From positions 1 to 60,030 of IMG/VR virus record IMGVR_UViG_3300020404_001765: DNA of 60,030 nucleotides; one strand, 5' to 3'. The notes under the pieces were generated by a model that was not told where the DNA came from, did not search any database, and saw only the letters and a list, made by a program, of their open reading frames with translations. Within the stretch, counting starts at the first letter, position 1; the number at the start of each line of letters is the position of its first letter. The translations under genes were made by a program, and so were the position numbers. Origin of the DNA: a virus. This document shows positions 29,552 through 45,466 of the stretch, in pieces.

Positions 29552-29559
29552 TATTTAGA
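29552..29559 (-). promoter_or_regulatory. TCTAAATA late-promoter-like motif at the polymerase stop
   Basis: Contains the TAA of the polymerase stop (29555-29557), then TAGCG and the ATG at 29546. Confidence 0.4.
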
Positions 29560-32218
29560 ATTCAAACAATTTGTTAAATGTATTTGTGGTTTCGGTTGAT
29601 TGCACGTCCCAATGTAGAACTCCTATCAAGTTGTCTATCTTTTGGTCAAGTATTGTGGACTCCATGGCGTCACCATCAAATGGCAATTCTTTGAACCACT
29701 CCGGAATACGCATTTCATCTACAGGATATGCTATGCTGGTATAACCCAATGGATTATTTTTCAATTTACATACAATCACTTTGGCCCCATCTGTTATGGG
29801 CATACTGTATTTGTCGCCATACATTTCTCTGCACCTGTTCCAGTTCATACTTGCCCTAACGTGTCCTGGCATATTTGCTTTGCCTTTGGCCTCCTCTGCC
29901 GCTGTGTACTTGGTCATGTTGTTTGCTCTCTTGGGAGAACCTTTCTCCCAGCCTGGTCTTGCCTTGAACTCTGCTCTAAATTCGCTAATCTTTTCTAGCA
30001 CTTCTGTTTCGCTTTTGCCTGTCAGCACCATGTATAGTAAGTCACTCAAAAAATCCTGCACAAACACCGGAGTATCAGACCTTTTAAGATCGAGGCCCAT
30101 TGCTTTGACTTTGCCTTGTTTGCCTTCTGTGTCAACACGTTTTCCTTCTTGATCATAATAAAGCGCCGCATATCTTTTCTTAGTAATAAACAATCCTTTT
30201 GATGCAACAAGTTCTCTACCTGCCGCTATCACTTCTCCGCGTGTACCTGGACAATGAAATGCCTTGGTCATAAATGCTTTGAATGATCCATTTACTTCTT
30301 CTGCTATTTTGTCATACAATGCGACCACTGAATCTTTAGTCCATGGAATAGTGCCGTTGGATATTTCTTTTTGCAAAGTTTTATATGCTGTAAAGTAAAC
30401 CGAGTCTGTGTCGCCATACACTACACTCTCACCTGTGTGATCATATTCTCCAGCAACAATTTCATTTACTTTACCTGCCATGTGCTTTGTTATACATCTT
30501 CCTGTTAGTGTAACCGATTGACCAATCCTTATGTCAAAGAATCTACAGCCAGGATTCAGAATTGCACCATACAAACTATTCAAATTAATTTTTTTAACAA
30601 GTTGTCTCTTGTCCCAATACTCTCGCTCAATTTCATTATCTCCACATTCATGCATTTTACGTTGCATATCTTTTCGTTCTGCATACCATTTCTTTAAAAG
30701 TCCCGGTATCACTGCTTCGTATTCGTAAGTGAAGATTGTGCCATTTGCACTTAACATCCATTTGTTGTTGCTTTCAAATACTACTTCGTAAAGTTGTGCG
30801 GCACTCATACGCACACTAGTGCCATCTTCCCAGTCGACCACAACTTCTGTGGCCTTATCTTGTTTCATAACTGCTTGATACTCCCAACTACCAAATTGGC
30901 TGTCCCATGCCGCCGCAAAAGATTTTCCTGCGTGTTTGGCCCTATTGATTTCCGCTGATGTGATTATGGGTCTTATCTGTCCAACTATTGTTTCAGGTCC
31001 CATATTCAACGCACGAATCACAGAAGGGTATAGAGAGTTAATGTCAATCGAACCAATCCAATCTTGTATTCCTTTTTTCGGAGTTGCCACATATGCACCT
31101 GCCGCCGGCTGATTTTCTTCGCCGTCCTTTTTGTACTTCCTTCCAGGCACTACCATACCACGCCTGTGTGTTTCGTTTACTATGGCCTGTTCTGTAACCG
31201 CAACAGCACCCATTGTTGTTTGTAGTAGTACAGTGTTTTGGTGTGCAATCTCATTGGCAAGTTCTATAAATTTTAGTTTCTTTTCGAGTTTGGCCAAAAG
31301 TGCAGTATCTTGCCTGTTGTATTCTATGAACAATCCAAAATCATTTTTATACAAGTTGTCCAAAGAACCTTCATACACAGTTTTCTTTTCTCCTAGTTCA
31401 TGTTCGCCAATTGCGTCCAATCTGAAACTGTGCCTTTCCTCATATGTGTATTTCCTGTATAGTTCTAGCAAGTCCAAGTGTACACGTCCTACCAAATCAA
31501 AACTTAACTGTTCTCTGCCGTATTTCTCAAATACTCTTCTCTTTGGCTTTTCGCCCCAGAAACACAATCTTCTCGTGTCGTCTCCGCTTAAAACTTTTTG
31601 TATTCTTCCCACAGTGTAAGGAATATCATATCCCTCACTGTTCCAACCTGACAGTATGTCTGCGTCTTCCACAAGTTCTAGGAAAGCGTCAAGCATGTCT
31701 TTCTCTTTCTCAAACAGCATTGTATTTGGAAATCGTTCAGTCAGCACTTTTGCGTCTTGCATACTGATTGTTTTAGGTGGTACAGCAAGTGTGACCAGTT
31801 GATCCGTCCAACCCATGTAACAACTTATGGCAGTTATGGGCATGAACGGATCATCTGTTGTGGAATAACCTCGATCTGGATCGAAGTCTACCTCGATATC
31901 AAAAAACATCACATTTAGTTTTGGAGTTTCCTTACCGAGATAATTCTCCTCCAAACATCTAAACACAGGATTGATATCGTGTTCATAAAGAGACTTGTTG
32001 GACCTAATCCTCTGCTCTTTTATGAATTCTTTCTGTGTGGCGCATGTTACTTTTTGCAAAGTCTCGCCGGTCATTGACCTGTGTTTGCCCCTTGCGTCAG
32101 GATAGTAAAATACATATCTTGCGTCATACTCCACAAAGACACGACCCTTCTTTGGATCTCGTTCTACAACATATATCCTGTCTTCGTCTTTTTTATATAA
32201 TGCGTCTATGTAACTCAT
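29555..32218 (-). CDS. 43: Family B DNA polymerase, gp43 type
   Basis: 887 residues, the T4 gp43 size class. Exonuclease motifs FDIEVD (106-111), SGWNSEGYD (190-198) and NRQDTALL (301-308) are intact, so 3'-5' proofreading is expected. Polymerase motifs A, B and C are DINSLYPSV (392-400), KINLNSLYGA (543-552) and YGDTDS (601-606). It replicates the phage genome with gp45 and gp44 in this window. It abuts the membrane gene upstream. No insertion or split is seen. Confidence 0.97.
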   Translation of the reverse strand: MSYIDALYKKDEDRIYVVERDPKKGRVFVEYDARYVFYYPDARGKHRSMTGETLQKVTCATQKEFIKEQRIRSNKSLYEHDINPVFRCLEENYLGKETPKLNVMFFDIEVDFDPDRGYSTTDDPFMPITAISCYMGWTDQLVTLAVPPKTISMQDAKVLTERFPNTMLFEKEKDMLDAFLELVEDADILSGWNSEGYDIPYTVGRIQKVLSGDDTRRLCFWGEKPKRRVFEKYGREQLSFDLVGRVHLDLLELYRKYTYEERHSFRLDAIGEHELGEKKTVYEGSLDNLYKNDFGLFIEYNRQDTALLAKLEKKLKFIELANEIAHQNTVLLQTTMGAVAVTEQAIVNETHRRGMVVPGRKYKKDGEENQPAAGAYVATPKKGIQDWIGSIDINSLYPSVIRALNMGPETIVGQIRPIITSAEINRAKHAGKSFAAAWDSQFGSWEYQAVMKQDKATEVVVDWEDGTSVRMSAAQLYEVVFESNNKWMLSANGTIFTYEYEAVIPGLLKKWYAERKDMQRKMHECGDNEIEREYWDKRQLVKKINLNSLYGAILNPGCRFFDIRIGQSVTLTGRCITKHMAGKVNEIVAGEYDHTGESVVYGDTDSVYFTAYKTLQKEISNGTIPWTKDSVVALYDKIAEEVNGSFKAFMTKAFHCPGTRGEVIAAGRELVASKGLFITKKRYAALYYDQEGKRVDTEGKQGKVKAMGLDLKRSDTPVFVQDFLSDLLYMVLTGKSETEVLEKISEFRAEFKARPGWEKGSPKRANNMTKYTAAEEAKGKANMPGHVRASMNWNRCREMYGDKYSMPITDGAKVIVCKLKNNPLGYTSIAYPVDEMRIPEWFKELPFDGDAMESTILDQKIDNLIGVLHWDVQSTETTNTFNKLFEF

Positions 32219-32813: not shown

Positions 32814-33575
32814 TTATTTTTTGGCTTTTTTCTTTTTGGTATTGACGTTGATTGCTTTACCACGCCTGTTTGGATTTGGATCTTTTCTTCTCTTCCTACG
32901 TGCCGCACTTGCCCTGCCTTTTTTGCCCAGTGCTCTTGCTTTTGCAAGTGGTAAGCATTTTGGTTTACCTTCACCTTTGCTTTTGCCTCCACAGGCACCT
33001 CTAATCTTTCCTTTTGGTCCCATCCTTACCCATTTTTGTTTGAACCATTTTTTAAGATTTTCATTTAGAGATTCGTGTAAAACTATACCTCCACAGTTTA
33101 CACAAAAGTCAACGTGTTCTCTCTTGACACAGTTAGGCACTCTCTTGCCAAACATGGTCTTCATGCCTTTCTTCACGTATCCTTTCCAGCATCTTGTGCC
33201 TTCGTCCACTAGTGCGTTAAGATCGTAATTTGGATTTATTGCACCGTGTTTCATTTTTGCAATCATGTCCATTTGCATGGCAACCATAAAATCGTAATCT
33301 GTAACGTCTTTGGTTCTATGTGTGTAAACTTTTACTAGCACCTCATCGAAAAATACTCCAAGGTCTGCATGGTGATCTAACTTCTCTTGTGGCTTGATAG
33401 TGTTAATAAGATATTCGATTACCTCAAAGTAATCCTCAAACTTGAATCTTTTCTGCAGACTGTTATCCTTGTATTCCCAGTCAGGCAGGAATTTTTGCCT
33501 TAGTCTTTCAATATCCTCTTTTGGAAGATTTACATATTCTCTGTCTGGTGATTCGTTCAGTTCGTTTATCTTCAT
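32814..33575 (-). CDS. Tagged late protein with basic Cys module
   Basis: 253 residues. It begins with the short tag MKINELNESPD shared by this locus. The middle (near residue 120) has TRCWKGYVKKGMKTMFGKRV and PNCVKREHVDFCVNCGG, a Cys-rich module likely to bind metal; a similar CWHGYQQKGYKKKG occurs at 39746-40516. The C-terminal 60 residues are almost wholly Lys, Arg, Gly and Pro. Its first base pair overlaps the Lys-rich end of the gene upstream (ATGA), so translation is coupled. Function unknown; likely virion-associated. Confidence 0.7.
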   Translation of the reverse strand: MKINELNESPDREYVNLPKEDIERLRQKFLPDWEYKDNSLQKRFKFEDYFEVIEYLINTIKPQEKLDHHADLGVFFDEVLVKVYTHRTKDVTDYDFMVAMQMDMIAKMKHGAINPNYDLNALVDEGTRCWKGYVKKGMKTMFGKRVPNCVKREHVDFCVNCGGIVLHESLNENLKKWFKQKWVRMGPKGKIRGACGGKSKGEGKPKCLPLAKARALGKKGRASAARRKRRKDPNPNRRGKAINVNTKKKKAKK

Positions 33576-33763
33576 TTCTTCTTACTCTTGTTGCCCCAAT
33601 TAGCCGCGCCTTTTTTCCGACACTGAACTAGAGCACCAGAGGCGTAAGCCGAAGGCCAAACTTTGTATCTTGATCTAACTTTGTGATAGCAGGCATCTTT
33701 CTTTTCTGCTAGTTTTTCAAACTCTTCTAATGTTACTCCAACAACTTCAAGTACCTTTACCAT
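33572..33763 (-). CDS. Small basic module protein
   Basis: 63 residues. DACYHKVRSRYKVWPSAYAS continues into GALVQCRKKGAANWGNKSKKK, a conserved two-Cys basic module common in marine T4-like phage virion proteins. It starts 7 nt inside the upstream gene (ATGGTAA) after AGGAA, and ends in a Lys run whose codons form a purine-rich site for the next start. Confidence 0.65.
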   Translation of the reverse strand: MVKVLEVVGVTLEEFEKLAEKKDACYHKVRSRYKVWPSAYASGALVQCRKKGAANWGNKSKKK

Positions 33764-34536
33764 TTCCTACAACTCCAATATCTTGCTTTTGTTTTTGGTC
33801 CTGGGTTTGCACAGTTGTGTCTTGCTCTAAAACTTTTTCTTGCCTTAGGATTTGACTTTCTGATCTTCATTGTCTTCTGTCCGGCTTTTCTTGCTGAACT
33901 TCCACCGTGTCCGAAGTTTACTTTTTTCACGTTTCCGGATTTTGGATCTTTAACGTACACTTTGAATTTTTTTACATCACCACGCATTGGTTTATTAAGC
34001 GGTACCTTACGTCCTCTGTACTCTGCGTCAAACAATTCCGTCTCGTCTTCTGGGAAACCAAGTTCACCAAACGCTTCGTAGAACGCATCATCGTCCTCGA
34101 AAGTCATCTCGTCTTCTTCTGGGAACGGTTCGTATGCTTCGTCAAAGTTTAATTCGTCTTCAACATCTCCCAACGCCGTAAGTGCTCTTGTCTTTGAGTC
34201 ATCGTCGATGTTTAGTTCTGCTATTCTATCTTTCATAGCGGAGATGTCTAACATTAGTAATTTGTAATCATGATCTTCGATTCCTGATTTTGCTTCATCA
34301 GTTGGGACGTTCAACCCATCTATTCTGCTTATTAAAGATTTCATGTCTTCCATAGTGATTGATTCCCCCATCTTCATTTGTGTTGCGTCTTTTGTAAAGT
34401 TAATAGTTTTATTTAAGCCTCTACTGCCTGCACTTGCTGGTGACTTTACTTGTTTTCCAGCGTCTACATGCCCTTGATCACGCAGTCTTACTGTGTCATC
34501 AACGTATTTGCCGTAGTTGTAAGGTATTTGACTCAT
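33757..34536 (-). CDS. Late protein: acidic middle and basic C-terminal module
   Basis: 259 residues. An acidic helical middle is followed by YRGRKVPLNKPMRGDVKKFK, the beta segment GNVKKVNFGHGGSSAR and the end ARHNCANPGPKTKARYWSCR, a conserved module found in many marine T4-like phages. A late-promoter box lies six bases before the start. It heads the tagged locus near the capsid-type genes. Function unknown. Confidence 0.7.
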   Translation of the reverse strand: MSQIPYNYGKYVDDTVRLRDQGHVDAGKQVKSPASAGSRGLNKTINFTKDATQMKMGESITMEDMKSLISRIDGLNVPTDEAKSGIEDHDYKLLMLDISAMKDRIAELNIDDDSKTRALTALGDVEDELNFDEAYEPFPEEDEMTFEDDDAFYEAFGELGFPEDETELFDAEYRGRKVPLNKPMRGDVKKFKVYVKDPKSGNVKKVNFGHGGSSARKAGQKTMKIRKSNPKARKSFRARHNCANPGPKTKARYWSCRKW

Positions 34537-34542
34537 TTTACG

Positions 34543-34550
34543 TATTTATT
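34543..34550 (-). promoter_or_regulatory. AATAAATA late promoter before 34536
   Basis: Contains the TAA stop of the upstream gene (34546-34548). Six bases (CGTAAA) then ATG, with no ribosome-binding site. Confidence 0.6.
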
Positions 34551-35187
34551 TCCACAGCACCACTTTGAAACGTTCTTTATCTATGCCAAAAAATTTAGTT
34601 TTCCATTCACTCTGTTCAAAAAAGCCTAATGGATACCATTCTTCTTTACGTGCCAACATAGTTTTAGCACGATCATTCCAGTCCTGTTTCAACAGAAATT
34701 GCTCCATGGATGCTTTTTTATCGGCAATTTCTTTATAGTCAAAACCGTCATATTCCCAATGCAATAGTTCAAACACATTTCCCTGCTTGTCGCAATAGTC
34801 AATACTGAAATCCAACCCCCATTTAGGTTTCATTGCAACCAATTTATATAGATGTGGCTCTGCTTTTGCCCATAATGTAAGTTGTTCTAGAGCATCACCA
34901 GAAAAGCCTTTACGTTCAAACATAACAGCATGATTGATATGAGGACCATCTTGTTCATTGATATCAGTGAACCATGTCTGTCTTAAAGTGATGTGTTCTC
35001 TGTCACGATGTTTTGTTGTGTATCTGGCATTTGCCACTGCGTATAGTTGCTCCAGTTTAGTTAGATCATAGCCGTTCTGGTCAAACAATTCTACTGCTTC
35101 CTTTGGAGGACAAGCGAAAACTGTTTTTATTTTTTCGGTCCAACAAGGTTGCGGATCAAATTGGTTTTTTGTCACGTGCAGTTGCAT
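34546..35187 (-). CDS. Conserved phage protein, unknown
   Basis: 213 residues, soluble. Segments ITLRQTWFTDINEQDGPHIN and PKWGLDFSIDYCDKQGNV are conserved-looking; the C-terminal half is aromatic. The start follows ATAATTA plus five bases (CGTGT), exactly as at 9664. No domain recognised. Confidence 0.65.
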   Translation of the reverse strand: MQLHVTKNQFDPQPCWTEKIKTVFACPPKEAVELFDQNGYDLTKLEQLYAVANARYTTKHRDREHITLRQTWFTDINEQDGPHINHAVMFERKGFSGDALEQLTLWAKAEPHLYKLVAMKPKWGLDFSIDYCDKQGNVFELLHWEYDGFDYKEIADKKASMEQFLLKQDWNDRAKTMLARKEEWYPLGFFEQSEWKTKFFGIDKERFKVVLWK

Positions 35188-35192
35188 ACACG

Positions 35193-35199
35193 TAATTAT
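35193..35199 (-). promoter_or_regulatory. Late-promoter-like ATAATTA before 35187
   Basis: ATAATTA, five bases, then ATG; identical over 15 bases to the site before 9664. Confidence 0.35.
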
Positions 35200-36051
35200 C
35201 TATTTTTGTGGATCTAAATCGTTAGTATATTTGTCTTCTGCAGGTAATTCTACTTCTTCACCTTCATCAAACTCTGGGTCAAGCATAGGCACTTCACCGT
35301 CATCGTCTTTTTCATCTGATTTGTCTTCTGCTTCTTTGTCATCTTCTTTTTCTTTTGCATGTGGCTCAGATGTGTTTCTGTCTGTTTGTACACCATCGAC
35401 TACTTTTTCGTCTACTTGCTCTTCTTCTGCAGGTGCTTCGGCCTGTTCGGCGTCTGCAATGATTTCAGTAGTTTCTGGAGTCTTGACAAGAATATTTTTT
35501 TGTTCTTCATTGTATACTGCTTCATTGTCTGAGATTGTGTTGTAAAGTTCCACAAGTTGAGAATCTTCTGCGTTCTTGACATACTCTGCGATATCTTTTG
35601 TAACAACTTCTCTGAATGATTTTGAATCATATGTTTGCTCTTCTTTTTGTTCTGCTTTTAGTTCTGCTAATTGTGTTTCTAATTCTGCAATTTTATCTAA
35701 TCTGTTTACTGCTTCTTTTACTTCTCTTTTAATTGAAGTTGCTAAAGATTCATCGGCATCTGCTTCTTTAATTGCTTTAGTAATTACTGATTCCGTTTTT
35801 GGCTCTTGCGTGATAGATTCTACAAGTTTTTCTGCCTTTGGTGATACTTTTGTTTGTTCTACGTATTCCTTGATTCCAGCCAACTTGGCAATGTCTGCCA
35901 ATGAAATGTCTTTATCATCTAACACTTTAGGCTCTTTGTTTGCCGCTTCCATAAGTTCTGAACGCTCTTGTTCAGGAGTCATATTGCTCATTGCGTTTAA
36001 ACGAGCTACTAGGTCTCTAAAACTTGTGTCTGCTGATTTTTTTGTTGCCAT
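35200..36051 (-). CDS. Acidic scaffold-like protein
   Basis: 283 residues, very rich in Glu, Asp, Lys and Ala. Coiled-coil helices (NRLDKIAELETQLAELKAEQ) are followed by a strongly acidic tail. The composition is like phage prohead core proteins, but no homologue is recognised. It has a perfect TATAAATA late promoter six bases before the start, so it is a late gene. It contains an LME-A run (residues 33-36) that could serve as a prohead-protease site. Confidence 0.55.
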   Translation of the reverse strand: MATKKSADTSFRDLVARLNAMSNMTPEQERSELMEAANKEPKVLDDKDISLADIAKLAGIKEYVEQTKVSPKAEKLVESITQEPKTESVITKAIKEADADESLATSIKREVKEAVNRLDKIAELETQLAELKAEQKEEQTYDSKSFREVVTKDIAEYVKNAEDSQLVELYNTISDNEAVYNEEQKNILVKTPETTEIIADAEQAEAPAEEEQVDEKVVDGVQTDRNTSEPHAKEKEDDKEAEDKSDEKDDDGEVPMLDPEFDEGEEVELPAEDKYTNDLDPQK

Positions 36052-36057
36052 ACGAAG

Positions 36058-36065
36058 TATTTATA
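36058..36065 (-). promoter_or_regulatory. Perfect TATAAATA late promoter before 36051
   Basis: Identical to the T4 late consensus. Six bases (CTTCGT) then ATG, so a leaderless start is predicted. Confidence 0.75.
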
Positions 36066-36077
36066 AATGTTTTGCGT

Positions 36078-37949
36078 TTATTTAATTTGTTGTTCTAGTC
36101 TTATTGCCAGTTTTGATTCGTATGCAAGTCCTTCCGTTTGGATGAATTTACTATATTTGCTCTGCATACTTTTGACAAAATTTAGATCCTTGCCAGAACT
36201 CAACCTGACTTTGACTGCTGAAAGGTCTTTTTCAATCATATTTGCAAGTTCGTCATTGCCTTGATCCTGTGCCAATTCTAATGCTTTCTCCATAGCCGCC
36301 ACTGCCGGCACACTTCTATCTATGGCATCCTGTATAGACCCTACTCCGGCCAACCCTGCCACAATTACGCCCGCCATTGCTAGGTTTTTTGCCCAGTCCT
36401 TTATGCCTTCTTGCATTTGTTCGTCGTCTTTAAGATGTTTGTCTTTGATCTTTCCAATCTCTTGGTGTGAGGCACCTTTGCCCGCCGCACTTTGTATGGC
36501 CTTCATTCCAGCCTTGCCGTATTTCTTTACTCCTGCTCTGTACAGTATTCCACTTTCGTTTGCTTCGTCGTCCTTCATGGCATTTTTAGTTGCAGTCGCG
36601 TACATCACTGCTTCTGCGTCCTTGCCATATCTCTTCTTGAATCCTGCTTTGTTCTTCTTCATGCCTTTGACGATCTTTTCTCTCTTGTTCATTTCGCCCT
36701 TGGTCATGCTTCTACCTGATGTGCTGTGTTGGCCACCGTGTGCTTCGTCTGTGTTTTTTCTATTCTCTTTGGCCATTTTTTTCTCAACTTCGTTAACTCT
36801 TTTGGCAAGTATCCTCATCATGCCTGGTTTAGTATCAACATCATCAAGGCTAGTTTCTCTAGCCAATATTTCATCAATATTTTTTTGCACTATGCCTGCG
36901 TGTCTTTGTAATACGCTGGAATCAAGTTCTTCTCTGTATGGATTAAGTTTCTGATATTCTTCGTAGTTGTGTACACCCTGTAGATAGTCCGCCGCTTTGT
37001 TCAGTTTGCTCTGCACCCAACCCTCAAGATCATCACCCTTGTTGATCATGTCCATTAACTCTATCGCATACTTGGCAGTGTGGTACAATGTGCTTTTGCT
37101 CATGTGTCCCTCGCCTGCGTCTTCTGAAACTGATTCGTCTCTATTGTAAAGATAATCATAGGCATCACCTAATTTTTTATCATCCATAAAATCTGAACCC
37201 ATCGCGTCTGACAGTGCGTCAATCATATTCATAGTAATAGGCAAATGTTCTTTGTTGTGAATTTTATCAAAGAAGTCGTCGTCTGCCTGTTCGGCGTCGT
37301 ACATACTGTCATATCCATATTTCTTTAATGCGGCTTCTAACTCGTCATCGTCTATTCCATCTGTACCAACACCAGTCTGCAATCGCATCAGCATATAACC
37401 TTTCGGTAGGCTATCACCGTTTCCACCGACACGATTTCCATACTTTGCTTGAACCATGTCTAGTGCTTTTTTCTGTTGATCTGTGAGAGAGCCTGCGTCT
37501 TCGTCAAACTTGCCGATTTCTTCTTGGTCACTGCCTGTCTGATCTAGGAATTTCAAATCCTTTGCAAAGACATCGTTTTCACCTTGATCCTCACCGTATG
37601 AGATTGTGTAGATGTCTCCATCTTCATCTGGTGTGAAGTCTACTATCCTTACGATCCTGCCTGATTTAATTTCTCTTGCGTAGTCACCGATCTGTTCTCT
37701 TGATTCCGTCATGCCACCGTCATCGTATAGTCCGGCCTTCTCGCCCTGCATGTAGCCATGCACTTTTTTCACATAGTCACCTGCTAGGTCTATCTTCTTT
37801 GCTACCCATGACTCCATCTCCGCCGCATCGTCTATCATGTTGTGTATCTTGATCGCATGTTTACCAATCTTAAGCAATTGGTTCAAGGCCATTGAAGCCT
37901 CGTATGTGTCTGGTTTGACTGGTTGGTTATGTAATTCGTTAATCTTCAT
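36078..37949 (-). CDS. Large tagged late protein with repeated modules
   Basis: 623 residues from the start at 37949 (MKINELHNQ). Two copies of one helical module are seen: SWVAKKIDLAGDYVKKVHGY near residue 50 and GWVQSKLNKAADYLQGVHNY near residue 307. Later come the basic module KGMKKNKAGFKKRYGKDAEA and AGVKKYGKAGMKAIQSAAGK, both common in marine T4-like phage virion proteins. Between modules lie MTESR, MQEGIK and QTEGL runs that resemble prohead-protease sites. One membrane-like helix (AMAGVIVAGLAGVG) near residue 540. It may be cut into separate parts. Confidence 0.65.
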   Translation of the reverse strand: MKINELHNQPVKPDTYEASMALNQLLKIGKHAIKIHNMIDDAAEMESWVAKKIDLAGDYVKKVHGYMQGEKAGLYDDGGMTESREQIGDYAREIKSGRIVRIVDFTPDEDGDIYTISYGEDQGENDVFAKDLKFLDQTGSDQEEIGKFDEDAGSLTDQQKKALDMVQAKYGNRVGGNGDSLPKGYMLMRLQTGVGTDGIDDDELEAALKKYGYDSMYDAEQADDDFFDKIHNKEHLPITMNMIDALSDAMGSDFMDDKKLGDAYDYLYNRDESVSEDAGEGHMSKSTLYHTAKYAIELMDMINKGDDLEGWVQSKLNKAADYLQGVHNYEEYQKLNPYREELDSSVLQRHAGIVQKNIDEILARETSLDDVDTKPGMMRILAKRVNEVEKKMAKENRKNTDEAHGGQHSTSGRSMTKGEMNKREKIVKGMKKNKAGFKKRYGKDAEAVMYATATKNAMKDDEANESGILYRAGVKKYGKAGMKAIQSAAGKGASHQEIGKIKDKHLKDDEQMQEGIKDWAKNLAMAGVIVAGLAGVGSIQDAIDRSVPAVAAMEKALELAQDQGNDELANMIEKDLSAVKVRLSSGKDLNFVKSMQSKYSKFIQTEGLAYESKLAIRLEQQIK

Positions 37950-37950
37950 A

Positions 37951-38523
37951 TTAATTAAATCCAAAGTGTGTGACTTCAGGATACTTCGCTAAAACTTTCC
38001 TTGCTATCTCGTTGTGTGCTTTGACCATTTGGTTCATGTAACCTTCTGGCTTGCCACCTGATATCATGTTGCCGTCTCTGGTTGCTGGTTCTTCGGGACT
38101 TCTTTTTCCGATGTTCTTTTGTAACCACTGCGTGGTTCTGGCTATGAATTCTTTTGCTGGTACTGGACTCATGTCTTCGAAATCACTATCGTATCCAAGT
38201 GCGTCAAGGAACTGTCTCATACTGGCGTTGCTCATGTATGGACTCTCTACTTCCTCGTCATCTTTATATGCGTCTGGGAAAGTCCACAAATTCTGTTGTG
38301 TTGGATGTTTGTGGTAAGCAATCATTTCAGCACCTTCTTTGATTGATTCGTCCTTTATCAAATTGTGTTGATGTTTCTGCAGGTCAGCCATGTTATCAAA
38401 TGTACCTGTTAGTTTACCGTGTCTGTATGAGTAGAATTTGCCGTCCTTGTTCCTTGCGGCAAGTCCGTATTTGTTCATGCCCCTGTCTGAATTGTCTTCT
38501 GTTTTAAATTCATGGAATCTCAT
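37951..38523 (-). CDS. Tagged late protein, unknown
   Basis: 190 residues from MRFHEFKTEDNSDRG at 38523, the M-R-x-x-E-F tag form. It has a DSIKEGAEM-like run (IKE-G) and a short C-terminal fold ending VLAKYPEVTHFGFN. A late promoter (AATAAATA) lies five bases before the start. Ends one base before the next start. Function unknown. Confidence 0.65.
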   Translation of the reverse strand: MRFHEFKTEDNSDRGMNKYGLAARNKDGKFYSYRHGKLTGTFDNMADLQKHQHNLIKDESIKEGAEMIAYHKHPTQQNLWTFPDAYKDDEEVESPYMSNASMRQFLDALGYDSDFEDMSPVPAKEFIARTTQWLQKNIGKRSPEEPATRDGNMISGGKPEGYMNQMVKAHNEIARKVLAKYPEVTHFGFN

Positions 38524-38528
38524 ATCAA

Positions 38529-38536
38529 TATTTATT
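38529..38536 (-). promoter_or_regulatory. AATAAATA late promoter before 38523
   Basis: Five bases (TTGAT) then ATG. It overlaps the stop of the Cys-rich mini-gene. Confidence 0.6.
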
Positions 38537-38699
38537 ACGCACAGGCTACGCAACGACAGTGCTTACAAACCTCAATTTCGTACTTGTTTGACCCGTCTAT
38601 AGGGCTATGTTTTTCAGTTCTTTTACAAACCTTACCACAATGACTGTCGCAACCACAATTTTCACATTTAATGGGGTCAGTGAGTACTAATGGTTCCAT
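38535..38699 (-). CDS. Cys-rich mini-protein, metallothionein-like
   Basis: 54 residues with nine Cys: KCENCGCDSHCGKVC in the first half and VCKHCRCVACA at the end, plus two His. The spacing (CxxCxC, CxxC, CxxCxC) suggests metal binding like small metallothioneins or zinc ribbons. The start shares one base with the upstream stop (TAATG), and the stop overlaps the late promoter of the next gene. It lies in the tagged locus, close to the SOD gene. Confidence 0.6.
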   Translation of the reverse strand: MEPLVLTDPIKCENCGCDSHCGKVCKRTEKHSPIDGSNKYEIEVCKHCRCVACA

Positions 38700-38962
38700 T
38701 ACCTTTTAATCCCCGGCCCACCAAATAAACTTACACCCGGCATTGCGTGGGCACCTTTGGCAGTGCCATTAGGATTTTTAGGTTGCACTATTTTTGGTAA
38801 TTTTGGTGCTTTTGTTCCTGATCTGCCTGGAGATCCTGTGAATGATTTTTTGAATCTGTCTCTACCTATAGCGATGTGTGGACTTACAACAGTGGCAATG
38901 TTACCTGCCGACGTGGCTCCCGCTGTGGCTTGTTCTCGCATGATTACTTCGTTGATTTTCAT
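38699..38962 (-). CDS. Small tagged basic protein
   Basis: 87 residues from the start at 38962 (MKINEVIMREQATAGATSAG). The rest is rich in Gly, Lys, Pro and Ser (KKSFTGSPGRSGTKAPK), probably disordered and basic. A GATAAATA late promoter lies six bases upstream. A gene upstream (39737) ends 62 nt inside this one. Possible internal DNA-binding virion protein. Confidence 0.6.
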   Translation of the reverse strand: MKINEVIMREQATAGATSAGNIATVVSPHIAIGRDRFKKSFTGSPGRSGTKAPKLPKIVQPKNPNGTAKGAHAMPGVSLFGGPGIKR

Positions 38963-39737
38963 TATCAATATTTATCAAACCATAATAGTCGGCATAACAC
39001 AAAAAGTCACTCTCAAAAATGACTCGGGTTTTTTTTGGCGGCGTACTTCTTATATCTCTGTGTGGATCAAGCATCAACACGCCGTATTTTTTTATTAAAG
39101 GTATTGTAAATTCTTTTTGCCCACCATACCAATCCTCATACCTTGCAGTTGGCCAACGCACAGGTTCTGTGTCATCACCTTTCCTAGATGCCAGTTCATT
39201 GGTAGTATAATACAGATATACGTGATCTGCATAGGGCAGTTTTTTCTTTATCCTTCGTTTTTTTGATATCAACGCTAACCTATTAAGTTTGTCCCGTGTT
39301 AATAGTTTTTTTGGTAAAAGACAGAAACATTTAAACTTTATTAAATTAGATTTGGTCATGAAGCCATTTGTGTAATTTGTGTTGCTGTCATTGATCCTGA
39401 ACGTGAAGTTATCAGCGAGTTGTGATCCTTCTAATTCGTAATAAAGTAATTTTTCCGGACAAACTAAACGTGCGCCGTCCTTGTTAACTAATTCAGATAC
39501 GTGAGGATGTTTGTTTTCTGTTGTAGGTGGCAGGTCATATTCATACTCGTAATGACATTCTTTAGAATATTTCAAAAATGTTTGATTCATTTCTTGCATA
39601 GACCAAAAGTTTTTTCTAACCGAAATACTTTCTTCAAGGTCGATATCATCAATTAACCTATTGTTTGCGAATATTTGTAGGTTTATAGGCTCTTTGTATT
39701 TTTTGAATTCTAAAAAAACTAGTAACACATATTGCAT
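38901..39737 (-). CDS. Late protein with N-terminal beta domain, unknown
   Basis: 278 residues from MQYVLLVFLEFKKYKEP at 39737. The first 45 residues look like a beta strand pair (INLQIFANNRLIDDIDLEES). The C-terminal part has WYGGQKEFTIPLIKKYGVL and DPHRDIRS. It overlaps the downstream gene by 62 nt, longer than usual here. The start follows ATAATTA plus five bases (CACAC). Function unknown. Confidence 0.6.
   Translation of the reverse strand: MQYVLLVFLEFKKYKEPINLQIFANNRLIDDIDLEESISVRKNFWSMQEMNQTFLKYSKECHYEYEYDLPPTTENKHPHVSELVNKDGARLVCPEKLLYYELEGSQLADNFTFRINDSNTNYTNGFMTKSNLIKFKCFCLLPKKLLTRDKLNRLALISKKRRIKKKLPYADHVYLYYTTNELASRKGDDTEPVRWPTARYEDWYGGQKEFTIPLIKKYGVLMLDPHRDIRSTPPKKTRVIFESDFLCYADYYGLINIDNENQRSNHARTSHSGSHVGR
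38969..38976 (-). promoter_or_regulatory. GATAAATA late promoter before 38962
   Basis: Six bases (TTGATA) then ATG. It lies inside the 3' end of the 38901-39737 gene. Confidence 0.6.
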
Positions 39738-39742
39738 GTGTG

Positions 39743-39749
39743 TAATTAT
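39743..39749 (-). promoter_or_regulatory. Late-promoter-like ATAATTA before 39737
   Basis: ATAATTA overlapping the TAA stop of the upstream gene; five bases (CACAC) then ATG. Confidence 0.3.
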
Positions 39750-40516
39750 TTTTTCTTTTTTCGCCCCGACTTCATGTTGGCACACCAGTGATACATTTTT
39801 GCACGTTCACCTGATGCTTTTTTTGCCTTACTTCTTAATGATGTGACTGATCCCTTGCAACTTGCACCTGCACGTTTCACACGTCCTGGCCTGCTTTTGC
39901 CTTTGCGTTTACCGTCCGCAAAGTTTTCCAGGAAATCGGCAAATTCTTCTCGCATTGTTTTTGGCTTGCCTTTGCCTAAATGTAGTTTTTTAATATTCAT
40001 GTATTCACCACCAACTGGCACGTCTTTCGTTGCATTTTGTTTTGTTACTATACCAACACCTGCGGCTTCTTCTTTAACACAGTTAGGCACCATTTTGTTG
40101 CCTTTTTTCTTGTAGCCTTTTTGTTGATATCCATGCCAACAACTGCCCCTTGCTTCATCCAGTTCCGGATGATATTCCCATTTCACATTTTTAGCATCTT
40201 TGGAAACTGATTCTCCATCTATTTTAATTTCAATAGGCATTGCCTCGTTGGGATTCTGATACCAATAGTATGTGTCATAACTGCCGTCTTTGTTGCTAGT
40301 GACAACTAATCCTCGTGTGTGTTCCTCGTCATCTGCTTGTAATATCATTTTTTTTCCGGTAGGTAGTTTGAGATCAGGACTATGCTCATCTTCATTTGCT
40401 TTGTTGTTGCCCTTGTTTTTGAAATCAAATCTATTATTAGGTCCTTTACCCGGTTTGTGTATTAGGCCCATAGGTTTAATTGTTTGTGGCATTATTATAA
40501 ATTCTTTGATTTTCAT
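39746..40516 (-). CDS. Tagged late protein with basic Cys module
   Basis: 256 residues. Tag MKIKEFIIMPQ. Then an N-terminal acidic-basic part, a beta region (LVVTSNKDGSYDTYYWYQN), the Cys module RGSCWHGYQQKGYKKKG ... PNCVKEEA (like the one at 32814), and a C-terminal GASCKGSVTSLRSKAKKAS ending RKKKK. The start codon overlaps the Lys-rich end of the upstream gene (ATGA). Likely internal virion protein; function unknown. Confidence 0.65.
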   Translation of the reverse strand: MKIKEFIIMPQTIKPMGLIHKPGKGPNNRFDFKNKGNNKANEDEHSPDLKLPTGKKMILQADDEEHTRGLVVTSNKDGSYDTYYWYQNPNEAMPIEIKIDGESVSKDAKNVKWEYHPELDEARGSCWHGYQQKGYKKKGNKMVPNCVKEEAAGVGIVTKQNATKDVPVGGEYMNIKKLHLGKGKPKTMREEFADFLENFADGKRKGKSRPGRVKRAGASCKGSVTSLRSKAKKASGERAKMYHWCANMKSGRKKKK

Positions 40517-40908
40517 TTCTTTTTCTTCCTACCTGCACAATGCGCCTTTTGTGAAAATCCTTTTGGATTATTACAGTTTATAGATTTTTTATATTTTGTA
40601 CTCCACTTTTTTGCTTCGTTGCTTTGTGTAACTGGTGGTACTTTAGATCTTTGATTGTCCTTGGGGTCAGTTTCTCTTGCACCTCTTTCTTTGGCCGCTT
40701 TTGTTAATTTTCCTTTAACCAAATTTCCTGTCTTCGTAAAGTAAGTGCCTGGTGGTGCTTCTTTAGTTTCTTTTTTAACTCTGTATGGATATGCCATCAT
40801 AGGATAATATCCCATACGCATTTTCTTTTTACCTAATTTTTTGATTACTTTATCAACATCGCCGTGAACATAATCAGTAACGTATTCTGTTATCTCACGT
40901 ATCTTCAT
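40513..40908 (-). CDS. Tagged late protein with CAGR-type basic module
   Basis: 131 residues. Tag MKIREITEYVTDY; the C-terminal KKWSTKYKKSINCNNPKGFS then QKAHCAGRKKKK is a compact two-Cys basic module also seen in virion proteins of related phages. The Lys codons at the end supply a purine run before the next start. Confidence 0.65.
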   Translation of the reverse strand: MKIREITEYVTDYVHGDVDKVIKKLGKKKMRMGYYPMMAYPYRVKKETKEAPPGTYFTKTGNLVKGKLTKAAKERGARETDPKDNQRSKVPPVTQSNEAKKWSTKYKKSINCNNPKGFSQKAHCAGRKKKK

Positions 40909-40914
40909 TTCTTT

Positions 40915-41133
40915 TTATTTTTTTTCCACTAGGTTGATTAGATCTTGTACTGTCTGCACTTTGTCACCATCGTCCTGTGATATTTTTACGCCTGTGGCTT
41001 TCTCTACCTGTATCACCAGTTCTACTGTGTCAAATGAATCTGCATCTAAATCGTTTACTAAATGTGCTTCTGGAGTGACCTTGCTCTCCGCAACGTCTAG
41101 GTGTTCTGCTATAATTTTAATTACTTCTTTCAT
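40915..41133 (-). CDS. acpP: Acyl carrier protein
   Basis: 72 residues. The phosphopantetheine site is Ser in DLDADSFDTVELV, with the usual VNDLDADS and acidic helix pattern. ACP carries acyl chains for lipid or fatty-acid synthesis, and in this locus could carry acyl groups used by a virion or injected enzyme. The start overlaps the flavodoxin gene stop (ATGA). It lacks the late tag, so packaging is not suggested for it. Confidence 0.85.
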   Translation of the reverse strand: MKEVIKIIAEHLDVAESKVTPEAHLVNDLDADSFDTVELVIQVEKATGVKISQDDGDKVQTVQDLINLVEKK

Positions 41134-42038
41134 TTCTTTTTATTTTTGGCTTTGGTTTTCTTCTTCATGGAGTTGATAAACTTCCTGTAGATGGCCGCTG
41201 GCCCTGATTTGCCTGCCGCTCTTGCTCTCTGCTCCATGGCAACTGCCGCTTGTATTTTGTGTGCGTGTGATCTACCCGATTTCCTAATCTTTGCAACACT
41301 TGACCTTGCCGCCGCTTCATCCTTGAATCCTAATCCATGGATAGTGCCTTTTGGATCTTCATCCGTGTATAGGTCACTGTGTTTTTTAGACTTTGCTTTT
41401 TGTCCCTTTTTACGTGGTATCCTCTTGCCTTCGGTAAGATCTTCATTTATATCAACAGAACCGTGCCTACCGTCTTTTGCCGGATTGCCTTCTTTCAAAA
41501 CCCTTGCCCATGCAGTCATGTTAATTGCACAGTTTTTGACTTGATCAACAGTGTCTTGGTCATCTAGTATTTCATCTAGGCCTTGTGCCTTAGATTCTAC
41601 ATTTGCCTGTGGCACTATTGTGAATCCAAAGTTAGATGCGAAACTGTAAAGGTTGCCATGTATTTTTTGGAATCCATCTCCACCACCCGATATCAATGAA
41701 CCAAACACTTTATTGTAAAAAGGTTGATGCTTGTTTTCTTTTGACCAGTTGTATATGGGATCCATTCTTTCCATAATTGCTTGAATGTGTGAACTCTGTC
41801 CACTCCACCATATAGGTGTTGCAAAAACAACGCCGTCTGCCTTAAACATTTTCATTAATTCTGGTTTCAACTCATCATTAATATCAACAGTACCTCTTTC
41901 GTAATTCAATTCTCTCATCGTGATTACTTCGCAGTCTTGCCCTAATTTTTCAAATGCAAGTTTCAACATACTTACAACTTTGCTAGTGTTTGATTCTGCG
42001 TCAGGCTTCAGTGTTCCGTTAAAAATTAAAAATTTCAT
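41130..42038 (-). CDS. Flavodoxin-fold reductase fused to a basic virion module
   Basis: 302 residues from [20 protein letters not shown]. The first 190 residues are an NAD(P)H-dependent FMN reductase or flavodoxin fold ([20 protein letters not shown] is the flavin-binding loop). Then [14 protein letters not shown], a prohead-protease-like LTE-G site, joins a C-terminal Lys-rich module ([20 protein letters not shown] and [20 protein letters not shown]) common in marine T4-like phages. The fusion suggests that the enzyme is packaged or cut free in the virion. A few codons upstream are also open. Confidence 0.75.
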
Positions 42039-42589
42039 TTTGTATCTCTCAATGTAATTACACCACAAGCCAATCTGTCACCAGCGTTACCTGTCTTTAA
42101 ACTTTCTTCATCGCCGCCTAACCCTAGGTCATCTTTTTCAGCATGGACTACTATACCTCTTCCAACTACTGATCTATCGCCTATTAAGTCAACCCTGTTT
42201 GCTCTTATTGAAAAATTAGCAACGCCTGATTCTGTTGCTATAATATTTCCAAGATCACCAACATGTCCTTCGTCTCTGTCTCCGTGATTAACATTATCAG
42301 GATTATAGTGGCCACCCATTGATTTACAGCCATCACTCATGTCTCCAAATTCGTGTATGTGGAAACCATGTTCACCCGGTGTTAGTCCGGTAATTGTGCC
42401 TTTGATTAGTGTTGGAGTGCCTGGGGCCTGCATCAGCAAAATACTACCTTTTACCTCGTCGGAGTGTTGTAGATCGCACTGGGCAATCACAGTGGACAAT
42501 CCTTCTGTGATTCCTTTTACCTTGCTACAAGAACATTCTTTTGCTTTGGTTCTAGGACAATGTGTTTCTGTAAATTCTAAGGCTCGCAT
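42035..42589 (-). CDS. sodC: Cu/Zn superoxide dismutase with N-terminal late tag
   Basis: 184 residues. The Cu/Zn SOD core is complete: [50 protein letters not shown] and [10 protein letters not shown] give the copper and zinc His and Asp residues. It removes superoxide. In place of a signal peptide it has the locus tag [11 protein letters not shown] and then [12 protein letters not shown], an ITE-G site that would free the enzyme after residue 31. It is preceded by a late promoter. This suggests a virion-packaged SOD, delivered with the DNA or protecting the particle. Confidence 0.88.
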
Positions 42590-42597
42590 ATTGCGAG

Positions 42598-42605
42598 TAT
42601 TTATT
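42598..42605 (-). promoter_or_regulatory. AATAAATA late promoter before the SOD gene
   Basis: Contains the TAA stop (42601-42603) of the upstream gene; eight bases (CTCGCAAT) then ATG. Confidence 0.65.
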
Positions 42606-42804
42606 TGTTTTTTGGCATTGGCTTTTCGCCAGTGAGTTTAGGTCTTGCAAACCACAATTTAAACCACTCTTGGGTGCCTGGTTTGATGTTGTGCTTTCTT
42701 TGATAACGTGCTTTTTCTGTGCCTGTGTACGACAGATTTTCTCCCATCGAATCTTCAGATTGCTCGGCCACACCTGCTAATTTCTTCAACTCTTCTATGT
42801 CCAT
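42601..42804 (-). CDS. Small conserved late protein
   Basis: 67 residues. [20 protein letters not shown] then [16 protein letters not shown] is a pattern familiar from T4-like marine phages. N-terminal [11 protein letters not shown] is a mild match to the tag consensus. It follows a 59-residue ORF with a one-codon junction (TAAATG). Function unknown. Confidence 0.65.
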
Positions 42805-42984
42805 TTATATAGTCCAGTCTTTCAACTGTTGCTTGGTAGGTTTGTGTGCTTTTACTTTTTCAACCTTGCCGCCTTTGGCCAAGAATGCTTTCATCTTATC
42901 ATCGAGTTCTCGCTGTTTTTCTTGTGGAGTTTTTTCAATTTCTCCTGCCGCGTATGGTCTATTGATCCCGCTGAACTTTGGCAT
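42805..42984 (-). CDS. 59-residue conserved-like protein
   Basis: Reads MPKFSGINRPYAAGEIEKTP then a charged helix (QEKQRELDDKMKAFLAKGGK) and ends QQLKDWTI. It starts 26 nt inside the end of the HAD fusion gene and runs to the base before the next start. Good codon use and tight packing support it. Function unknown. Confidence 0.6.
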   Translation of the reverse strand: MPKFSGINRPYAAGEIEKTPQEKQRELDDKMKAFLAKGGKVEKVKAHKPTKQQLKDWTI

Positions 42985-44131
42985 ATCCTTCTAATCCTTT
43001 CTTCACTGTGTCTAGTGAATCTCTGTTTGCTTGATATAGTATTCCGTACCCACCAGCCGCCTGCCATTTTTCTATATTAATAGGCCTGTCGTCAATGAGT
43101 ATATTTGGAGTACCGGTTCCCTTATCGACCGCATAACTTTCTTTACGGCCAGTTACAACCACCTCATCTGGTTGTTCAATATTATTGCTAATCCACACCT
43201 TTTTATACTTGGCACTGTTTGCATGATCTCCTCTTAAAGGTGAAGTGTTTATTGAAAACTTACCACCTGTAAATTTTTTAACCATATCTATAAGTGCATC
43301 TGCTGTTGAAAATTTAGGCAATACTGCAAAGAAGTCTGTGCCTGTAATACGATCTATAACTTGTTTTTTCAAATCTTTCGTTTTGTCATTTGTCAATTCC
43401 TTCCAATGGTCAACACCATAAAGGAATTCAACACCGCCGAAGAAGTCTGCTAGGACTCCGTCCATGTCTAGATATACAGTTGGCTTTGCGTCTTCCATGT
43501 TTTCATTATACAACTTTTTGTTGTTCTCGTCAATCTGTTTACCAAGCCTGTCTTGTATTATATCATATAACTTTTTGCCAGTATTTCCGCCCATTATTAT
43601 TTTGGAAAATTCATGTTCTTGTCCTTTGTTAGCAAGTTCCCTGGCTTTTGATGCCGAGGCACCTGATGCGCCTTCTTGATCAGGATCTCTTTCTCCTGCA
43701 CTTACAACATCAATGTAATCAAACTTATAAAGGTCATTTCCTTGCTTGTCTGGTTTACCGTTGTATTGATTTAACAATTTTTGAAATTCTGCAACTCTAT
43801 CTGATCCTGCAACCATCACGAGCCTTGTCCTTCCTTCTGCTTGGATTTTTTGAAGTGCTTGGATTATTGTTTTTACAGCCGGATCACCTATCGCTAATTT
43901 TGGATAGAACATTTTCAAGTAATCTGTTTTTTCTCTGTGAGTAAGTGGGTCTGTTTTGTTGTTTTGTTTGTGTGAAAGGAAAAGAAATGCTTTGCCGTTG
44001 ACTTGCTGTGCCATCGACTCGAGTTTGTCTAATAATTTTTGGTGTCCTATTGTGGGTGGATTGAATCGGCCAAAGGCAAATACTGCTGTTGAACGATCGT
44101 CCTCCCTAAGAAACAGTTCCCTGAGGTGCAT
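42959..44131 (-). CDS. Nucleotidyltransferase-HAD phosphatase fusion with late tag
   Basis: 390 residues. After the tag MHLRELFLREDDRST, the nucleotidyltransferase motif FAFGRFNPPTIGHQKLL (the HxGH-type loop) opens a cytidylyl- or adenylyltransferase domain with ISTxxxR-like SASKARELANKG. Residues 210 onward form a HAD phosphatase: PTVYLDMDGVLADFFGG (DxDxx loop), RGDHAN and NILIDDRPINIEKW. The two activities could make and trim a nucleotide such as NAD precursors. The tag suggests packaging. Exact substrates unknown. Confidence 0.78.
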   Translation of the reverse strand: MHLRELFLREDDRSTAVFAFGRFNPPTIGHQKLLDKLESMAQQVNGKAFLFLSHKQNNKTDPLTHREKTDYLKMFYPKLAIGDPAVKTIIQALQKIQAEGRTRLVMVAGSDRVAEFQKLLNQYNGKPDKQGNDLYKFDYIDVVSAGERDPDQEGASGASASKARELANKGQEHEFSKIIMGGNTGKKLYDIIQDRLGKQIDENNKKLYNENMEDAKPTVYLDMDGVLADFFGGVEFLYGVDHWKELTNDKTKDLKKQVIDRITGTDFFAVLPKFSTADALIDMVKKFTGGKFSINTSPLRGDHANSAKYKKVWISNNIEQPDEVVVTGRKESYAVDKGTGTPNILIDDRPINIEKWQAAGGYGILYQANRDSLDTVKKGLEGYAKVQRDQ

Positions 44132-44462
44132 CGTATTCGCCTTGTTTAATATTCTCTATTTCTCTATCAGATATTATTCTTGCAACTTGTTGTCTAGTCT
44201 CTTTTGGAAACATTGTCGAAACATCGTCTTGTGTCGATCCGTACTCTTTGACATACTCTTTTGCCGCATCATCAACTAGATACATCCAAAGTTTTTGTGC
44301 TTTTTCATGATCGTAGATATTTTTTTTAACTTTTCTTTTGATATTTGATATGATGGGCATAAAACGCCTACGGTATAGATCCTCATTGTTCATAATGAAC
44401 GAATCTAGTTCGTTGACTGCGTCGCTGTCTATGTTCTCTTTTATAAATTGTGATGCTCTCAT
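44106..44462 (-). CDS. Small tagged late protein
   Basis: 118 residues. Tag MRASQFIKENIDSD is the closest in the locus to T4 internal-protein signals (MR-x-x-Q-F-I-K-E). The rest is charged and helical. A late promoter lies seven bases upstream. It overlaps the fusion gene by 26 nt. Function unknown. Confidence 0.65.
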   Translation of the reverse strand: MRASQFIKENIDSDAVNELDSFIMNNEDLYRRRFMPIISNIKRKVKKNIYDHEKAQKLWMYLVDDAAKEYVKEYGSTQDDVSTMFPKETRQQVARIISDREIENIKQGEYDAPQGTVS

Positions 44463-45134: not shown

Positions 45135-45466
45135 TTGTACATCCTTTCAAATTTTTCTGTTATCTCTATCCTACGTCCGCCCTGTGCCTCAAACTCACTT
45201 ATGAATCGGTCTATCAAATTAGCCGCAAGTCTTCTGTACTCGGGTAGAATACTTTTTTGTATTTCTAATATATGATGTTGCGGTTCGTTATGAATCATAG
45301 TTCCAACTGGCACCTTGTCAATCCAGGTACCTGCTAAACACATGTCGTTTTGAATTTTATGTAATTCTTTCGTGGGATTAAATGTAGGCATGATCTTACG
45401 TGACTCATCCACAAGTATGCACATAAGTGTTCCAAAATAGTCTTCTTTGTAGATATCTTTCTGCAT
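45122..45466 (-). CDS. Conserved late protein, unknown
   Basis: 114 residues, with MPTFNPTKELHKIQNDMCLAG and LIDRFISEFEAQGGRR. It overlaps the autotransporter gene by one base (TAATG) so it is transcribed with it. Function unknown. Confidence 0.6.
   Translation of the reverse strand: MQKDIYKEDYFGTLMCILVDESRKIMPTFNPTKELHKIQNDMCLAGTWIDKVPVGTMIHNEPQHHILEIQKSILPEYRRLAANLIDRFISEFEAQGGRRIEITEKFERMYKWKQ

Follow-up and report, generated by a model that had tools for sequence, protein, structure and literature searches.

A locus on the minus strand at 32.8–44.5 kb of the window (the whole 60,030-nucleotide viral sequence analyzed here) is judged to be an enzyme-rich, modular version of the T4 internal head proteins in an uncultured aquatic T4-like phage. 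Its products very probably represent internal head proteins that bear capsid-targeting propeptides, are cut by the prohead protease and are delivered with the DNA; the tags, carried by unrelated products including a superoxide dismutase (SOD) and an NAD-type nucleotidyltransferase, most probably direct them into the head. The tag (M-[K/R], hydrophobic residues at positions 3 and 6, then [I/L/V]-x-E) would carry each protein into the prohead core late in infection; the prohead protease (gp21, family S77) would cut after Glu, just as it processes the major capsid protein, and the tag would be lost ahead of DNA packaging, the mature cargo being retained in the head and received by the next host with the DNA. 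The candidate cargo includes Cu/Zn SOD, NMNAT-HAD, pterin dehydratase and, perhaps by another route, FMN reductase, together with small Cys-rich modules of basic character that probably bind DNA and are shuffled between proteins.

The nine shared N-terminal tags described in the initial annotation are all present, on the minus strand and with ATG starts (Table 1; genes are named by their lower coordinate and a slash marks a predicted cut). Gene starts were set by alignment; automated start choice had concealed some tags, and two starts given previously (36078–37964 and 37951–38553) are replaced by the ATGs at 37949 and 38523. The bodies are unrelated, as had been claimed (SOD, NMNAT, pterin dehydratase and a helical bundle were found), and Pfam and PHROGs give no function for most of them. 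The Cys-rich and basic modules noted earlier occur in 32814 as tails, the body of this first gene being a pterin-4a-carbinolamine dehydratase (PF01329, 6.5e-14, 52 bits against a cut-off of 26) whose tag is conserved in 8 unique orthologues.

Table 1. Features of the tagged locus (all on the minus strand).
Positions	Strand	Feature	Match or remark
32814..33575	-	Pterin-4a-carbinolamine dehydratase with tag MKINELNE/S, CWKGY...VPNCVK module and KWF..KWV basic module	
33572..33763	-	Small Cys/basic protein, DUF5872-like (weak match), N-terminus MVKVLEV	
33757..34536	-	Untagged protein, C-terminal phrog_7595 module (FRARHNCANPGPKTKARYWSCRKW)	
36078..37949	-	623-aa modular protein, tag MKINELHNQ	
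37951..38523	-	Tag MRFHEFKTE, body without assigned function	G001 homologue starts MRFSEFKED
38699..38962	-	Tag MKINEVIMRE/, QATAGATSAGN arm, basic tail	
39746..40516	-	Leader MKIKEFIIMP...NNRFDFKNKGNNKANE, CWHGY module, GASCKGS basic module	
40513..40908	-	Tag MKIREITE/, body with SINCNNPKGFSQKAHC basic module at end	
40915..41133	-	Acyl carrier protein, untagged, within locus	PF00550 7e-10
41130..42038	-	FMN reductase, flavodoxin fold	PF03358 1e-13
42035..42589	-	Tag MRALEFTE/, C-x7-C-x-C propeptide, ITE29/, Cu/Zn superoxide dismutase	PF00080 1.4e-44
42601..42804	-	Small protein, different N-terminal signature LKKLAGV	
42959..44131	-	Tag MHLRELFLRE/, NMNAT/cytidylyltransferase-like domain, HAD deoxyribonucleotidase-like domain	PF01467, PF06941
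44106..44462	-	Tag MRASQFIKE/, predicted helical bundle	AlphaFold model

The pattern M[KRH]-Phi-x-[EQ]-Phi stands at the N-terminus of 9/19 locus genes against 0/68 genes elsewhere in the window (Fisher p=1.8e-7); it was derived from the nine-gene finding itself, the outside genes and the orthologues being independent of it. When residues 2–31 were shuffled, 0.16 matches were expected and the maximum was 3 (2000 runs). A tag of the T4 type, with a basic residue 2 and hydrophobic residues three apart, is found in nine genes and, with the orthologues, in a tenth, 33572, whose relatives start MKINEVxGITE/ or MQIREVxGITE/. Similarity among IMG/VR orthologues starts at the tag methionine, and across relatives the tag is preserved and the bodies are divergent. 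A strict form, in which Phi-x-E is added to the pattern, is present in 56 of the roughly 121 unique N-termini that the tag families provide (the 33572 family was left out of this count) and in 0 of about 130 orthologues of eight neighboring untagged families; the random loss of tags among homologues that the initial annotation had set against its own proposal is thus not what the orthologues display. A megablast search of 16 kb against INPHARED gave no match.

The tag varies in length among orthologues (MKISEVIRE/QATAG, MKINEVIIRE/QATAG, MKINEVITQKIKE/QATAG) and usually ends in [ILV]-x-E, with P3 and P1 of the cut conserved and P2 free. The [L/I]-x-E cut of a prohead protease is found at the tag end; in its broader form ([ILVMF]-x-E) it is present in 6/9 window tags and usual in orthologues of several families, and in the window sequences it was not found right after the tags of 36078, 37951 and 39746 (3/9). 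The tag is indicated to be a prohead-protease site resembling the capsid-targeting sequence of T4 but shorter by one residue, because the sequence behind the cut in 38699 matches a capsid N-arm: this protein reads MKINEVIMRE/QATAGATSAGN, the major capsid protein of the relative G001 reads YLSE/QATAGATSAGN at its propeptide end, and the downstream residues coincide exactly with the mature N-arm inferred for the major capsid protein in this clade. Among capsid proteins P3 is Leu in all 52 that fit the counting pattern (of 75 unique). No gp21-type S77 protease was found in the 60-kb window fragment, and the protease was therefore taken from G001, which has the same locus and carries an S77 protease. 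In AlphaFold models, residues 1–9 of 44106 (pLDDT<50) are followed directly after the predicted cut E9 by the folded body, and residues 1–30 of the SOD (pLDDT<50; predicted cut E29) precede a fold that begins at 31.

Published virion proteomes of cultured cyanophages contain proteins with similar N-termini. Mass spectrometry of S-CREM2 virions yielded a SAM hydrolase (MKDFDSFLEE), a kinase (VKRFDAFLTE) and a cytidylyltransferase (MKNFSSFLTE), as well as gp13 and gp15 (MNFSEFNES); its authors caution that virions purified on CsCl could carry abundant proteins as contaminants. The virion cytidylyltransferase of S-SZBM1 starts MRFRQFIIE and the virion NMNAT of S-SCSM1 starts MKSFLQFLKE, the neighbors of the latter (gp89–93, 95 and 97) being virion proteins too. 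Homologues among virion proteins are known for three cluster proteins or tail modules: NMNAT, the 33572 protein (which shares 78% identity over 54 aa with the C-terminus of gp160, a protein detected in S-CREM2 virions, and has a counterpart within an S-SCSM1 virion protein) and the CWxGY module of 32814, which also resembles gp160. The 42959 protein, with PF01467 above cut-off and GRFNPPTIGH matching the nucleotidyltransferase motif GxxxPxxxGH, is an NMNAT/cytidylyltransferase 42% identical over 162 aa to the S-SCSM1 enzyme. No virion-detected enzyme homologue was found for SOD or pterin dehydratase. The earlier idea that enzymes are among the cargo is supported for the NMNAT-like protein through its virion homologues and is an extrapolation for these two. 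The strict regex, applied genome-wide as the sole means of predicting virion proteins, was rejected: it separated 5/52 from 0/167 in S-CREM2 (four of the five N-termini had been seen before it was fixed) and 2/78 from 5/422 in two further proteomes (p=0.30), and was significant in S-CREM2 and in the pool (p=0.002) only. The available portions of the S-SCSM1, S-SZBM1 and S-CREM2 papers do not discuss the tag.

Short amphipathic N-terminal segments serve many purposes, and the tags might instead be degrons or signals to another destination (membrane, replication site or tail). We consider this improbable: the capsid arm behind the cut of 38699, the like-tagged enzymes found in virions and the absence of a signal-peptide pattern from the tags all argue against it. 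It is very unlikely that the shared N-termini stem from late-promoter design or from a common context of translation initiation rather than from a protein signal. Late-promoter-like boxes (NATAAATA) do directly precede several genes and A-rich starts favor Lys/Arg codons; the boxes, called late promoters in the initial annotation, were recovered, six of them within the locus, and are confined to the minus strand (12 against 0 on the plus strand). Yet tags occur with and without a box, and other late genes with a box are untagged. Conservation is moreover at the amino-acid level: in the 44106 family F6 is invariant in 23 sequences, some just 24–29% identical, and synonymous codons are mixed (E9 GAA or GAG 8:8, F6 TTT or TTC 9:7) with P2 free, and the E29 site of the SOD sits 29 residues into the protein. 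For the 44106 protein neither a relative in INPHARED nor a solved fold was found; its viral matches are unnamed, one being from Klosneuvirus.

The SOD is matched by PF00080 over its full length, and in the alignment H77, H79, H94, H102, H109, D112, H149, C88, C175 and R172 are invariant; we take these to include the metal-binding His/Asp and the disulfide Cys pair, which makes the Sod_Cu domain that of a Cu/Zn SOD. In its leader C11, C19, C21 and E29 are invariant (27/27 sequences), with I, L or M at P3 of the E29 site. A cellular source was considered and set aside, the close matches being phage-like contigs that had been binned into MAGs; SODs that appear to be cellular are more distant (39–45% identity) and have neither the tag nor the Cys leader.

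Leaders and modules are exchanged among these genes. In two relatives (L028 and L258) the short tag of the SOD is replaced by the leader of the 39746 protein; some relatives have the N-terminal leader of 33757 joined to pterin dehydratase, and in another (L139) the phrog_7595 module of 33757 carries a tag directly. A relative of 42601 (L128) has a KLAGITRE/ leader before SATAGATSAGN. The FMN reductase 41130 is without an N-terminal tag and bears behind an [IL]-x-E site a C-terminal basic module that is interchangeable, tails being swapped in relatives. A cut site before every basic module was not upheld; it is enriched for most and absent within 20 residues of GASCKGS. That the tags are functionless relics of shuffled start regions, as the missing cut motif of some could suggest, is scarcely credible given the unrelated bodies, the leaders swapped between them, the tag residues kept where body identity is <30% and the invariant second SOD site.

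The capsid-targeting proposal of the initial annotation withstood each test applied to it and is supported by the cut motif, the capsid N-arm identity, conserved P3 and P1, the model boundaries and the virion homologues; tag conservation and the swapping of leaders and modules add to this at the sequence level. If tagged enzymes are sent into the head, ready-made enzymes would enter the host with the DNA, and we infer packaging in the window phage, delivery and a host function (redox protection, NAD or nucleotide supply at entry). A more elaborate version, tentative and rather doubtful, is a capsid-delivered metabolic starter kit of head-borne redox and cofactor enzymes with an exchangeable tag, in which the C-x7-C-x-C leader of the SOD would assist metal loading or folding as a chaperone that is later disposed of, and the shuffled Cys-rich basic modules would tether cargo to the packaged DNA. 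The head-protein reading offers a sequence rule from which the proteins that an uncultured T4-like phage takes into its host could be predicted, and an explanation for a puzzle of cyanophage proteomics, the recurrence of metabolic enzymes in virions. Genes usually called auxiliary metabolic genes, and taken to work once they are expressed, may exert their effect as the phage enters; the tags also suggest themselves as a means of loading proteins of choice into phage heads.

Several known systems resemble the locus in part. Phage-encoded Cu/Zn SODs occur in Salmonella phages (SodC of Gifsy-2 and Fels-1), annotated as SOD precursor or virulence determinant; the alignment with them is confined to the SOD domain (residues 61–178), at ~30% identity. 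Ejection proteins of the giant phages SPN3US and phiKZ are likewise head cargo that a gp21-like protease processes behind a Glu, but the SPN3US motif is A-x-E, the propeptides are mostly long (PMC10052503) and the bodies differ. The virion NMNAT/cytidylyltransferases of S-SCSM1, S-SZBM1 and S-CREM2 are homologous enzymes with a similar N-terminal tag, that of S-SCSM1 in a similar genome neighborhood near gp43, and the window enzyme differs in its fusion to a HAD nucleotidase. In the cultured Pelagibacter phage HTVC008M a nucleotidase begins with MKYSAFKAE. In T4 the first 10 residues of IPIII suffice, positions 4 and 7 serving targeting and 8 and 10 processing, and gp21 cuts L/I-x-E (PMC9026906). 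IPI–IPIII and Alt of T4 share with the window proteins a short N-terminal propeptide, a hydrophobic pair three apart, an [I/L]-x-E cut and diverse basic bodies; their tags (IPIII type, MKTYQEFIAE/A) are one residue longer, and the window locus, unlike T4, comprises at least 10 genes whose bodies include known metabolic enzymes and modular Cys-rich tails.

The complete IMG/VR record, 60,030 bases long, represents part of the genome of a T4-like phage, and comparison with 50,697 phage genomes gave no close record. Nine tagged N-termini had been claimed by the initial annotation and all nine are real: the pattern M[KRH]-Phi-x-[EQ]-Phi (Phi, hydrophobic) occurs in 9/19 genes at 32.8-44.5 kb versus 0/68 other genes (p=1.8e-7), and shuffled sequences gave a mean of 0.16 and a maximum of 3 matches (2000 runs). 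IMG/VR orthologues align from the tag methionine, none of them upstream of it, and orthologues also identify the gene starting at 33572 as a tenth member. The strict form (tag plus Phi-x-E) is present in 56 of the ~121 unique N-termini of tag families, a count that leaves out the 33572 family, and in none of ~130 N-termini from eight untagged neighbour families.

Features of the window and their positions
Feature	Position	Strand	Remark
gp43-type DNA polymerase	29555-32218	-	adjoins tagged locus
NATAAATA late-promoter-like boxes	58050, 56804, 56334, 55470, 54803, 49257, 44477, 42605, 38976, 38536, 36065, 34550	-	12 on -, 0 on +
Helical-bundle protein (44106)	44106-44462	-	
Subtilase	45466-48417	-	PF00082
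Three Cys-rich proteins	8161-9276, 15726-16892, 20506-21651	-	N-termini like radical-SAM or SPASM proteins

The reading of these tags as T4-type capsid-targeting sequences is supported, as tag and junction match the T4 sequence and the tag of the 38699 family shares its QATAGATSAGN junction with a capsid propeptide. Tags of the 38699 family differ in length (MKISEVIRE, MKINEVIIRE, MKINEVITQKIKE) and end nearly always in [ILV]-x-E, directly before QATAGATSAGN. A 196 kb relative, G001, has the same locus and an S77 prohead protease, and the propeptide of its major capsid protein ends in YLSE↓QATAGATSAGN (arrow, predicted cut, placed from sequence); therefore, the same junction lies behind both tag and propeptide. 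P3, the third residue before the cut, is Leu in 52/52 capsid proteins fitting the counting pattern (75 unique from the clade). gp21 of T4 cleaves after L/I-x-E, and in T4 IPIII positions 4 and 7 direct targeting, 8 and 10 processing (PMC9026906).

In the 44106 family, E9 codons (GAA and GAG, equally frequent) and F6 codons (TTT or TTC) are mixed and any of K, S, N, T, I and L can stand at P2, thus selection acts on the protein. Only eight columns are invariant among its 23 sequences, F6 being one of them, and some sequences share 24-29% identity with the window protein. All 27 SOD sequences retain the Glu of ITE↓ at residue 29; their P3 is I, L or M and neighbouring residues vary. AlphaFold models of the SOD and the 44106 protein are disordered (pLDDT<50) over residues 1-30 and 1-9, respectively, and folded thereafter, so that the predicted cuts coincide with domain boundaries. 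Klosneuvirus, a giant virus infecting eukaryotes, contains close matches (37% identity) to the predicted fold of the 44106 protein, as do uncultured phages.

Leaders and modules are exchanged among relatives. The SOD of L028 and L258 carries the 39746 leader instead of the short tag, a KLAGITRE leader precedes SATAGATSAGN in L128, and the CWxGY module is directly attached to the tag in several relatives. FMN reductase tails (DUF5872-like, SINCSNPKGFSQKAHC, GASCKGS, or none) stand behind [IL]-x-E, and the tag is found on other bodies too, among them the S77 protease itself and a large NT5C nucleotidase protein. In L015, L080 and L086 the pterin dehydratase is fused to a leader from the N-terminus of the 33757 family (SSIPYNY...SAGSRGL), which stands ahead of it and may be another head-targeting domain. 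The SOD leader has an invariant C-x7-C-x-C, whose CxC is reminiscent, by analogy, of that of copper chaperones. SOD locus copies in MAGs assigned by name to Betaproteobacteria, Pelagibacter and Rickettsiales (L256, L257, L258, L259) are probably phage contigs binned with hosts, and hint at host range. The late-promoter-like boxes of the cargo locus lie so near the ATG that late transcripts probably have almost no leader. The subtilase, whose N-terminus resembles that of a lipoprotein and whose C-terminus is apparently rich in beta structure, is possibly an autotransporter-like secreted protease.

Three published cyanophage virion proteomes bear on packaging. The strict pattern matches 5/219 S-CREM2 proteins (SAM hydrolase, APH/ChoK-like kinase, cytidylyltransferase, gp13 and gp15, the last beginning with MNFSEFNES, nearly the window form), 5/5 of them virion-detected (p=6e-4, the regex having been fixed after four of these N-termini were already known); 52 virion proteins were detected in this phage (PMC10665884). 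It matches two proteins of S-SZBM1, including the cytidylyltransferase (MRFRQFIIE), the only non-structural enzyme among the virion proteins reported there, and five of S-SCSM1, one being the virion NMNAT (MKSFLQFLKE) and at least three likely due to chance. Enrichment is significant for the three proteomes pooled (p=0.002) and not for S-SZBM1 and S-SCSM1 without S-CREM2 (p=0.30). Five of six virion-detected enzymes of neither tail nor lysis, a set of our own selection in which three are homologues, have the strict tag (base rate, 1.7%); the remaining enzyme, which is Cas9-like, has an internal LRFASFMAE↓A further from the N-terminus. The S-SCSM1 NMNAT locus (gp89-93, 95, 97) encodes virion proteins almost throughout, and virion-detected relatives exist for the CWxGY module, for the window NMNAT (42% identity) and, at 78% identity over 54 aa, for the 33572 protein. 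Peptides like a capsid-targeting sequence occur at the C-terminus in S-CREM2 gp12 (L155, KTFRDFLN), S-SCSM1 gp93 (L156, RTFKEFLEYIE) and the S-SZBM1 prohead protease gp178 (L157, ISAFHEFLQSL), which suggests that the tag may also act from the C-terminal end.

The SOD is probably active, because its metal ligands are invariant in the alignment. We infer a role for head-borne enzymes (SOD, NMNAT-HAD, pterin dehydratase and perhaps FMN reductase): they would either contribute redox protection and cofactor chemistry when the host is entered or protect packaged DNA while still in the particle.

Capsid-targeting sequences and virion NMNAT are each already known; a literature search, with most subscription journals outside its reach, returned no paper linking them. 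What is new is a natural multi-gene locus for probable enzyme cargo, in which the tag is shortened, leaders can be exchanged and tail modules are shuffled, together with the capsid-protein junction as identifier of the tag. Like the T4 capsid-targeting sequence, the window tags space hydrophobic residues by three, but they are one residue shorter.
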